This document shows positions 58,693-61,419 of a stretch of 64,000 nt of DNA, piece by piece. Each line of letters starts with the position of its first letter. Positions within the stretch are counted from its first letter, which is position 1. Origin of the DNA: Sideroxydans lithotrophicus ES-1 (GTDB lineage: Bacteria > Pseudomonadota > Gammaproteobacteria > Burkholderiales > Gallionellaceae); the NCBI RefSeq assembly GCF_000025705.1, contig NC_013959.1, positions 2,860,001 to 2,924,000 of the forward strand, in the 5' to 3' direction. A program made the position numbers and the translations under genes. Under the pieces are notes generated by a model that saw only the letters and a program-made list of their open reading frames with translations, had not been told where the DNA came from and did no database searches.

Positions 58693-59814
58693 TTATTCGT
58701 GCGGATTGAAGGCGGTATAACCGTGCTTCTTTACCAATTCATCACGCTCCGCACCCTTAAGGTCTTCGCGCACCATCTCGCTGACCAGTTCATCGAAGGT
58801 GATCTTGGGGGTCCAGCCAAGTTTGTTTTTGGCTTTGCTGGCATCACCCAAAAGTGTTTCGACTTCGGTGGGGCGGAAGTAGCGCGGATCAACGCGCACT
58901 ATCGCGCGCGAGGACTGAGTACCGGGTACTGAGGACTGAGTGACCAGGTAGCCGACTTCGTCGGCATCTTTTCCTTCCCAGCGGATTTCCATGCCCAGTT
59001 CCTTGGCTGCTGCATTCACAAAATCGCGCACGCTGTATTGCACGCCGGTTGCAATTACAAAGTCTTCCGGCTTGTCTTGCTGCAGCATTAGCCATTGCAT
59101 TTCCACGTAATCCTTGGCATGGCCCCAATCGCGCAGTGAATTCATATTGCCCAGGTACAGGCATTCTTGCAGGCCGAGTTTGATGCGTGCCAGTGCGCGG
59201 GTAATCTTGCGCGTGACAAAGGTTTCGCCGCGTATTGGCGATTCGTGGTTGAACAAGATGCCGTTGCAAGCATAAATGCCATAAGCTTCGCGGTAATTGA
59301 CTGTGATCCAGTAGGCATAAAGTTTGGCTACAGCATAAGGGCTGCGCGGATAGAACGGCGTAGTCTCTTTTTGCGGTGTCTCTTGCACCAGACCGTATAG
59401 CTCGGAAGTGGATGCCTGATAGAAACGTGTCTTCTTGGTCAAGCCGAGCATGCGAATTGCTTCCAGAATTCGCAAAGAGCCCAGTGCATCGGAATTGGCT
59501 GTGTATTCCGGCTCTTCAAACGATACTGCAACGTGGCTTTGAGCTGCAAGGTTGTAAATTTCGTCCGGCTGAACTTTCTGGATGATGTGGGTCAGGCTGG
59601 AGGAGTCGGTCATGTCGCCATGATGCAGAAAAAAAGGCCTTCCCGTTTCATGCAAATCGTGGAAAAGATGATCGATACGGGCAGTGTTGAACAGTGAACT
59701 GCGACGTTTGATGCCATGCACCTCGTACCCTTTGTCCAACAGCAATTCTGAGAGATAGGCGCCGTCTTGTCCGGTAACGCCGGTGATTAATGCAACCTTC
59801 CTGGTTTTGCTCAT
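58693..59814 (-). CDS. gmd: GDP-mannose 4,6-dehydratase
   Basis: Converts GDP-mannose to GDP-4-keto-6-deoxymannose. 373 residues. [39 protein letters not shown] and [12 protein letters not shown] hold the NADP loop and Thr-Glu-Tyr-Lys set; [16 protein letters not shown] and [17 protein letters not shown] are diagnostic. In a variable loop (about residues 291-303, [13 protein letters not shown]) the DNA is a palindromic repeat word related to the insertion in manC. Confidence 0.95.
58911..58947 (-). repeat. Short palindromic repeat inside gmd
   Basis: The segment contains AGTACC-G-GGTACT (58918-58930) flanked by GGACTGAG words, repeated at 58912-58919 and 58933-58940. The peptide it encodes is Ser/Thr/Gln-rich, and similar words (CTGAGTACCC, ACTGAG) make up the larger insertion at 60748-60948. 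It keeps the gmd frame. Confidence 0.6.
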
Positions 59815-59835: not shown

Positions 59836-61419
59836 CTATCTGCCGTAATTATCTTCATAGCGCTGTATATCGTCTTCGCCCAAATAATCGCCGACCTGAA
59901 TCTCGACGATGTGCAGCGGTTCTTTGCCGAGATTTTCCAGACGATGTTTTGCGCCTATCGGAATATAGGTACTTTGATTTTTCTGAACGGTAATGACTTT
60001 TTCTCCGTTGGTGACAGTGGCGGTACCGGACACAACTACCCAATGTTCGGAGCGCTGCCGATGGCTTTGCAAACTCAGGCGCGCGCCCGGTGCAACTTCG
60101 ATACGCTTGAGCTTAAAGCCCTCCGGATCTTCTTCCAGCACGGTGTAGCTGCCCCATGGACGGTTCACTTTGGCATGAAAGATATGTTCGGTGGCGCCCT
60201 GATCGTGTAGTTTATCCACGACCTCGCGCACACGCTGCGTCTGATCGCTCTTCGAGATCAGCACCGCATCGGCGGTCTCGATCACGCACAGGTCTTCCAC
60301 TCCGATAACCGCGACAAGTCGCTTTTCGGCGCGGATCAAGCTGTCTTTACAATCCACTGCGATGACATTGCCTTGCAGTGCATTCCCATTCGCATCTTTG
60401 GGCGATATCTCATGCACCGCTTGCCAACTGCCAACGTCGTTCCAGCCGATGTCGCAGGGGATGAGCGAGACTCGATCCGATTTTTCCAATACACCGTAGT
60501 CAATTGAGATAGAGGGCATTTCGGCGAAGTGTTTTTCCACTGCTTGCTGGAAGGTTGAACCGGTTTGGCGTTCTGCAAGGATCGTTTGTACGACTTTGTC
60601 CACTTCTGGCAAGTAGCGTTGTATTTCGGCAAGGATCGTTGAAGCCCGCCATACGAACATGCCGGAATTCCAGTAGTAATCGCCTTCTTTAAGAAAATGC
60701 TCGGCGGTTTCTTGATCCGGCTTTTCGGTGAAACGTTCAACTTCCAAAACACTGTTCTGAGTGCCAGAAAGGCTGTTCTGGGTACTGAGTGCTGAGTGCT
60801 GAGAAACATTGTTCTGAGTGCTGTGTGCTGAGTGCTGAGAAACTTTGTTCTGAGTTGTGAGTGCTGAGTGCTGAGGAGAGCTGCTCTCTGCCTTTTCACT
60901 CGGCACTCGGCACTCAGTACTCAGTACTCTCTTCTCTTCACTCGTTGCTCGTGTTTTGATATAGCCAAAGCCTGTATCGGGACGGGTTGGCTGAATTCCG
61001 AAAGTTATCAATTTGCCGGTTTGAGCCGCCTCAATTGCCGTGCCCAGATGTTCGCGGAATCTTGCTTCGTCTTTGATGACATGATCGGCAGGCAGCACAA
61101 CCATGACAGGGTCTGCGCCTTTTGCCATAAGGTAGGCTGCGGCCAATGCGATGGCTGGTGCTGTGTTGCGGCCAATGGGTTCATATATGGCTTGGTAGGG
61201 CAAAAGAGCGTGATACGCCTCTCCTTTTGCATGCGATTCCTGCGTGACAATCAACACATCCTTTGCCTCTATTGTTGGAGACAGGCGATTGATCGTGGTC
61301 TGCAGCAACGAGTCATCGCCATCCAGCGCCAGAAATTGTTTCGGACGATGCTGTCTCGACATAGGCCACAGCCTGCTGCCGCTACCACCCGCCAATATGA
61401 CGGCGTTGACCTTACTCAT
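59836..61419 (-). CDS. manC: Mannose-1-phosphate guanylyltransferase / mannose-6-phosphate isomerase, with a repeat insertion
   Basis: Bifunctional enzyme: makes GDP-mannose (and mannose 6-phosphate). 527 residues; relatives are about 465-480. The N-terminal AVILAGGSGSRLWPMSR, NTAPAIALAAAYL and FTEKPD belong to the pyrophosphorylase; the C-terminal cupin with VNRPWGSYTVLEED and SLQSHRQRSEHWVVV is the isomerase. Between GFGYIKT and VERFTEKPD, residues about 158-224 are a Ser/Gln/Asn-rich repeat (three 12-residue units like SQHSALSTQNSL) that the family lacks. The frame is intact. It follows the regulator with an 8-base overlap. Confidence 0.94.
   Translation of the reverse strand: MSKVNAVILAGGSGSRLWPMSRQHRPKQFLALDGDDSLLQTTINRLSPTIEAKDVLIVTQESHAKGEAYHALLPYQAIYEPIGRNTAPAIALAAAYLMAKGADPVMVVLPADHVIKDEARFREHLGTAIEAAQTGKLITFGIQPTRPDTGFGYIKTRATSEEKRVLSTECRVPSEKAESSSPQHSALTTQNKVSQHSAHSTQNNVSQHSALSTQNSLSGTQNSVLEVERFTEKPDQETAEHFLKEGDYYWNSGMFVWRASTILAEIQRYLPEVDKVVQTILAERQTGSTFQQAVEKHFAEMPSISIDYGVLEKSDRVSLIPCDIGWNDVGSWQAVHEISPKDANGNALQGNVIAVDCKDSLIRAEKRLVAVIGVEDLCVIETADAVLISKSDQTQRVREVVDKLHDQGATEHIFHAKVNRPWGSYTVLEEDPEGFKLKRIEVAPGARLSLQSHRQRSEHWVVVSGTATVTNGEKVITVQKNQSTYIPIGAKHRLENLGKEPLHIVEIQVGDYLGEDDIQRYEDNYGR
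60748..60948 (-). repeat. In-frame palindromic repeat insertion in manC
   Basis: About 200 bases that interrupt the manC coding sequence without breaking frame. It has three 36-bp tandem units (60774-60809, 60810-60845, 60846-60881) built from TGTTCTGAGTGCTGAGTGCTGAG-like words, a partial unit before them (60753-60773), and an inverted arm after them (about 60892-60935, CACTCGGCACTCAGTACTC) able to pair back. The third unit differs mainly at its end. Confidence 0.85.

Follow-up and report, generated by a model that had tools for sequence, protein, structure and literature searches.

How does a long palindromic repeat come to lie, apparently translated, within the gene of a sugar-nucleotide enzyme? 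The question is posed by manC in a 64,000-nucleotide stretch of Sideroxydans lithotrophicus ES-1 (NC_013959.1, positions 2,860,001 to 2,924,000 of the forward strand; hereafter the window, in whose coordinates we report), a member of a genus of free-living iron oxidisers of which 34 genomes were compared. A preliminary description had noticed about 200 bases of palindromic repeat in frame in this gene, arranged as three 36-bp units plus an inverted arm, and our analyses recovered the same arrangement in a frame predicted to be open throughout. Our comparisons make it very probable that the ManC insert represents a single copy of a dispersed inverted-repeat element made of 7-bp units (heptads), tolerated in frame at a permissive linker of the protein. 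The parts of the gene concerned are as follows.

59836..61419, minus strand: manC, mannose-1-phosphate guanylyltransferase/mannose-6-phosphate isomerase, 527 aa (open reading frame and Pfam)
60733..60957, minus strand: expanded ManC linker, 75 aa (residues 155-229), between GFGYI and FTEKP
60747..60773, plus strand: incomplete extra unit, closing the insert at its 3' end in the coding direction
60774..60875, plus strand: 36-bp unit in three tandem copies, each encoding 12 aa and composed mainly of CTGAGTG heptads
60876..60898, plus strand: inter-arm segment that forms a small hairpin of its own, GGAGAGCTGCTCTCTGCC
60899..60931, plus strand: inverted arm of CACTCGG, CACTCAG and TACTCAG heptads; its ManC reading is RVLSTECRVPSE

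The protein gave Pfam matches to NTP_transferase, ManC_GMP_beta-helix and MannoseP_isomer and contains all four of the motifs that we take to be typical of ManC (AGGSGSRLWP, FTEKP, NSGMF and QSHRQRSEHW), and its reading frame runs uninterrupted across the insert. Tandem Repeats Finder placed a 36-bp repeat at 60774-60875 (2.8 copies, 89% matches), a repeat search returned three 38-nt copies at spacings of 36 and 36, and the two inverted arms (60775-60803 and 60899-60927, 29 nt) were 86% complementary. The tandem 36-bp copies described earlier are present, but the repeat is built from a 7-bp heptad (AGTGCTG), four of which plus 8 nt make up one 36-bp unit. Taken as a whole, the insert pairs (AGTGCTG)n with (CAGCACT)n as inverted arms, and part of it is duplicated in steps of 36 bp. 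The window has 12 matches to this heptad pattern, ten of them in manC and two in the adjoining gmd, compared with a mean of 0.05 and a maximum of 1 across 100 shuffles, and the insert folded more stably than its dinucleotide shuffles, with z-scores of -4.2 as DNA and -3.9 as coding-strand RNA. Structure prediction of the ManC protein alone gave a mean pLDDT of 37, too low to be informative. When aligned to 2x5s, which we take to be the Thermotoga maritima enzyme, the ManC flanks matched residues up to 156 and then from 160, so the linker of that enzyme is very short.

Evaluating the rest of the genome (G000 in our numbering of genomes; one contig of 3,003,656 bp), we found that the ManC insert belongs to a dispersed family of heptad palindromes. 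Within 2 mismatches the pattern had 15 matches against none for the reversed pattern, so the further copies that the preliminary description had proposed to look for do exist; within 3 mismatches there were 38 matches against 7, and because the reversed control gives 7, some of the weakest of these places may be chance. With host genes named by Pfam, copies in open frames were found in unrelated genes, namely one for a DUF3683/FAD-oxidase/Fe-S protein (hereafter GlcD-like), flgJ, where the copy separates the rod-binding from the glucosaminidase domain, and a UvrD/PD-(D/E)XK helicase-nuclease (AddA-like; hereafter the helicase). Weaker matches lie in gmd and in a nucleotidyl transferase that we presume resembles MurU, one copy found where a pseudopilin-like gene begins could precede its true start, and others are intergenic.

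The same genes in relatives revealed how patchily the element is distributed. Of 80 family genomes, 62 gave a ManC match; 30 loci were taken, 28 of them with a readable linker. As first supposed, ManC linkers are normally short (15-20 aa in 24 of the 28), the longer ones being those of ES-1 (75 aa), G078 (49 aa), G007 (31 aa) and G074 (27 aa). The expansion is thus real, although nearer 60 than the 65 extra residues first counted, given a usual linker of 15-17 aa. Besides ES-1, heptads in the ManC linker were found in a single species among the 28, G078 of the same genus, whose ManC shares 82% protein identity and has the same 36-nt period in its 49-aa linker; because both features are shared, the insert and its first 36-bp duplication probably predate the split of the two species, judging from these sequences, although the copies may alternatively reflect transfer between the two. 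The G007 linker, from another genus, holds a different palindrome of the CCCC..AAAGGGGGG type (L041; z -3.1).

At other genes the same linkers are occupied in several species, and most of the orthologues read lack the element. Among 20 FlgJ linkers read from 30 loci it was present in 6 (G000, G001, G037, G050, G146 and G155), and among the GlcD-like linkers of the genus, read at all 30 loci, in 3 (G000, G050 and G146). GlcD-like and MurU-like copies at the same site were also found in G013, and a helicase copy in G041, both belonging to other genera of the family, with MurU-like copies in G000 and G001 as well; because these copies show an identical position being occupied across genera in genes other than manC, same-site sharing is part of the picture. 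Across the family, heptads within 1 mismatch occurred in 27 of 158 genomes, compared with 5 of 158 for the reversed control. Further hosts included a MutL of G108 with CACTCAG heptads in frame between its two Pfam domains (L070) and a fused ABC ATPase of G155, and some family copies are single-arm heptad arrays that have no inverted arm. We also observed an NDP-sugar epimerase-like protein in G105 with TQHSALSTQHS inside its Pfam epimerase domain (L069), and heptad hairpins in G054 (L078) and G037 (L290) with a common loop region, ACCTCAGGCTCGG, which may be orthologous.

How the element stays open to translation can be read from its stop codons. With a unit length not divisible by 3, a CACTCAG array encodes the same seven residues in every frame and is free of stops, whereas the opposite CTGAGTG array has a TGA in each frame every 21 bp. 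In 22 genic copies whose flanking sequence anchored them at each end (the doubtful pseudopilin-like gene supplied two), we found the T that makes TGA in 0 of 13 in-frame heptads as opposed to 22 of 43 out-of-frame ones (Fisher nominal p 7e-4) and 134 of 162 heptads in non-genic clusters (p 1e-9 against the in-frame set). The listed FlgJ, GlcD-like and helicase matches are all free of internal stops, and the inverted arm of manC (60899..60931) has CGA where an in-frame TGA would stand. The out-of-frame heptads of genes, too, have this T at a lower rate than heptads outside genes (p 7e-5), perhaps from greater age. The pattern fits the loss of TGA where it would end the protein and lends no support to the earlier suggestion that the element was possibly selected to keep all frames usable, as only in-frame TGAs were lost.

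Beyond the family, a degenerate hairpin pattern retrieved at least 120 stretches from GTDB genomes, and AGTGCTG-type heptad hairpins occur in several phyla: among the 80 matches listed were Acidobacteria, Chloroflexi, Cyanobacteria, Planctomycetota, Elusimicrobia, Delta-/Gammaproteobacteria and Nitrosomonadales, some of the stretches being placed in the phylum to which we presume they belong. From 120 stretches we parsed 127 elements with a pattern that demanded at least two heptads per arm. Four heptads were the commonest arm size (66 left and 73 right arms), and the median loop was 16 nt. The palindrome extends into the flanks by a mean of 0.83 nt, above all 200 shuffles (mean 0.43), mostly due to four copies with at least 6 nt. 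We considered mirroring of heptads between the arms of an element as proof of selection for a stem and rejected it as a genome effect, given that own-arm agreement was 0.567 versus 0.412 for shuffled partners across all 127 elements and 0.597 versus 0.581 (P 0.34) for the 35 elements of one metagenome-assembled genome (MAG). The exact hairpin pattern had no match in IMG/VR, and no ManC relatives were confirmed there.

We favor the dispersed element as the source of the ManC insert. It would consist of a tandem AGTGCTG arm, a short loop and a reverse-complement arm, and it would have entered the ManC linker probably before the separation from G078, after which part of it would have been duplicated as 36-bp (12-codon) units. 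Its persistence would reflect a permissive site and a kept frame, with the CACTCAG orientation devoid of stops and the opposite arm carrying another base in the heptad that would give an in-frame TGA. We infer that it arrived by some transfer or copying rather than by growth in place, and the protein segment it encodes would, from its sequence, be neutral rather than useful. Several observations weigh against this reading. Target-site duplication was not in excess among the 127 elements (mean 0.39 nt versus 0.39 shuffled), and the loops of the 35 elements of one MAG had a mean best similarity of 0.72 versus 0.70 shuffled (largest 0.86 versus 0.78), which, being barely above shuffled, is unlike the copying of a whole unit. 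The hairpin is weak in the ES-1 GlcD-like linker (z -0.1) and in G078 ManC (z -1.8), both against simple shuffles; the p-values of the stop comparison are generous, the gene copies being kin by descent and found partly via their open frame; and the ES-1 MurU-like copy matches only at 3 mismatches, although we accepted it because of clean heptads at the same site in G001. In another MAG, from Chloroflexi, three loops looked alike by eye (L111, L145 and L162). Of the mobile element first proposed, the dispersed copies stand; its mobility would follow from how widely they are scattered, as neither an insertion event nor a target duplication nor an enzyme was seen.

A possible alternative, though clearly less likely than not, is that homologous recombination of the host gene carried element-bearing linkers from one species to another; same-site recurrence would then be allele exchange rather than repeated insertion. 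The GlcD-like carriers G000, G050 and G146 are not sisters on a tree of the rest of the protein, and by percent identity in 45-nt windows G146 is closer to the two other carriers than to its neighbor G153 both upstream of the element (84 and 77% versus 71%) and downstream (80 and 82% versus 68%), whereas elsewhere it is 91-92% identical to G153 and 81-84% to the carriers. This flank signal, however, was seen in G146 only: upstream, the closer match to G000 is the non-carrier G078 (88%, against 82% for G050), while G144 and G000 are tied at 82% in their identity to G050.

Expansion in place, in which chance heptads grew by polymerase slippage and nothing moved, seems to us unlikely while still deserving some credence. 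It would agree with the single-arm arrays of several family copies, the lack of target duplication and the mostly unique loops, but it does not account for the same heptad at many loci and in distant phyla with a reversed control near zero in the family, and slippage alone would not make the inverted arms present in many copies. Improbable is a repetitive extragenic palindrome (REP)-like element moved by a REP-associated tyrosine transposase (RAYT; Y1_Tnp): such a match occurs in 9 of 10 genus genomes with heptads (within 1 mismatch) versus 11 of 24 without (Fisher p 0.024), yet G054 (one contig, 99% complete) has heptads and no Y1_Tnp match, the two ES-1 Y1_Tnp genes (L293 and L309) have no heptad cluster beside them and no inverted repeats of at least 12 nt at most 60 nt apart around them, and the arms (AGTGCTG...CAGCACT) have, by eye, no GTAG/CGTC tag at the stem end. 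Least probable is a selected Ser/Gln/His-rich linker or a regulatory RNA or DNA site in the genes: the ManC segment is retained in two species, but unrelated proteins carry this DNA unit, relatives have different palindromes or no palindrome in these linkers, and copies also lie between genes.

The dispersed element probably also has a weaker representative beside manC.

58693..59814, minus strand: gmd, GDP-mannose 4,6-dehydratase, adjoining manC (open reading frame and Pfam)
58909..58941, minus strand: heptad palindrome in gmd, shorter and weaker (2 and 3 mismatches)

The one gmd orthologue read, from G007, is 4 aa shorter at this site. The manC-gmd neighborhood has several heptad clusters, and a further one (L292:2407-2531) lies about 1.4 kb past the window end and about 4.5 kb from the manC copy.

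Coding Rickettsia palindromic elements (RPEs), intragenic REPs and heptanucleotide repeats with patchy distributions across distant groups are already established. RPEs are repeats of 100-150 bp in Rickettsia and Wolbachia, and orthologues can carry different RPE groups near the same place, with a hotspot versus one diverged insert left open, according to excerpts of PMC3767692. The precedent drawn in the preliminary description is apt in the sense that the two would work alike: like RPEs and their Wolbachia counterparts as those excerpts portray them, the heptad palindromes are dispersed and lie in frame inside several unrelated genes without breaking them. The heptad element differs in its tandem-heptad arms and in a unit found in many phyla. 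Intragenic GTAG/CGTC REPs lie wholly inside open reading frames in several species. Repair genes, among them UvrD/REP helicase and recBCD, host many of these, and recB of two Xanthomonas species is hit at about the same site (PMC3733652, in part). The heptad element likewise occurs inside reading frames, that of a UvrD-type helicase included, but it has no GTAG/CGTC tag and is built of 7-bp tandem units, and the letters AGTGC, CACTC and GAGTG are absent from the main text of that paper. Unlike miniature inverted-repeat transposable elements, whose terminal inverted repeats come with a target-site duplication, the 127 elements had no excess of such duplication compared with shuffled flanks. Tandem 7-bp units beyond chance, as in heptanucleotide repeats (STRR/LSSR), were found. 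Excerpts of PMC4679880 describe TAACTGA repeats in Beggiatoaceae, Cyanobacteria and Bacteroidetes as direct or tandem, mostly intergenic and with stops in one orientation only, and those of PMC4692102 describe direct or tandem GGGAATC repeats in Xanthomonas; going by these excerpts, the 7-bp unit and patchy distribution are shared. The heptad element has, in addition, inverted array pairs inside housekeeping genes, with both arms in ManC and the 127 elements (where the search pattern demanded them) and single arms in some family copies. In the literature on heptanucleotide repeats and coding palindromes, covered by titles and abstract openings and mostly outside subscription journals, we found neither the AGTGCTG element nor the combination of inverted heptad arrays, in frame in linkers, that differ by species, and a search by heptad letters gave only unrelated work, judging by the titles listed.

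Further comparison of the helicase linkers showed that one site can hold many palindromes. The helicase was matched in 31 of the 34 genus genomes and its linker read in 27 of 30 loci (missing G144, G060 and G154). By eye these comprised AGTGCTG in 8 (degenerate in G054), AGGATTC in 3, AGGATTG in 3, AGGATAC in 2, GGGAATT in 1, CTCTCCC-type in 4 (three by peptide), another palindrome in 1 (G042) and none in 5. In these linkers the 7-nt periodicity is better conserved than the heptad sequence: among those of at least 40 nt, lag 7 was the top period (lags 4-14) in 16 of 26, versus 1 of 26 equal-length stretches upstream (p 1e-5, over related rows), with 8 of 30 versus 2 of 30 control stretches for GlcD-like linkers. 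On a quick tree of the helicase outside the linker, the types required 13 changes (minimum 7) versus a mean of 17.2 for shuffled labels, none of 200 as low; AGTGCTG alone required 7 versus 7.1 and so did not cluster, and no type with at least two rows formed a single clade. The GlcD-like linkers hold, in G042, a GTCGGGCTTCAGCCCGAC palindrome (z -8.1) with 84 matches within 1 mismatch in that genome; CTCTCCC-type hairpins in G150 (z -5.4), G072 (z -2.6) and G142 (z -3.9); and, in G075, a hairpin of TCGTTAG heptads (z -5.3). GGATT(C/G)A heptads were found in 20 of 34 genus genomes (controls 0) and CTCTCCCGNNNNCGGGAGAG in 31 of 34; in ES-1 the latter forms a second dispersed palindrome family, at 15 places.

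One comparison hints at rewriting in place. The helicase linkers of G016 and G146 align gap-free to those of G066 and G078, in which all three left heptads have GGATAC in place of GGATTC and, by eye, the complementary base appears in 2 of 4 (G066) and 3 of 4 (G078) right heptads, the innermost right heptad being unchanged. Because several independent point changes would need to agree, copying between repeats and arms would explain the pattern, although it concerns one locus in five species, either direction of change is possible, and replacement by a related element may be the alternative. Tentatively, and as a rather doubtful extension, heptad inverted repeats might be one element class set by architecture and 7-bp period, its unit rewritten by inter-arm copying, such that AGTGCTG, AGGATTC, AGGATAC, AGGATTG, GGGAATT and perhaps TAACTGA/GGGAATC would be states of one process with a few protein linkers as long-lived homes.

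The dispersed element illustrates one way in which housekeeping proteins can grow longer through repeat DNA, and it calls for caution that such segments not be read as functional domains. Because the same linkers hold different palindromes in a genus of 34 genomes, the question raised in Rickettsia, of a hotspot versus divergence of one insert, becomes testable by comparison.
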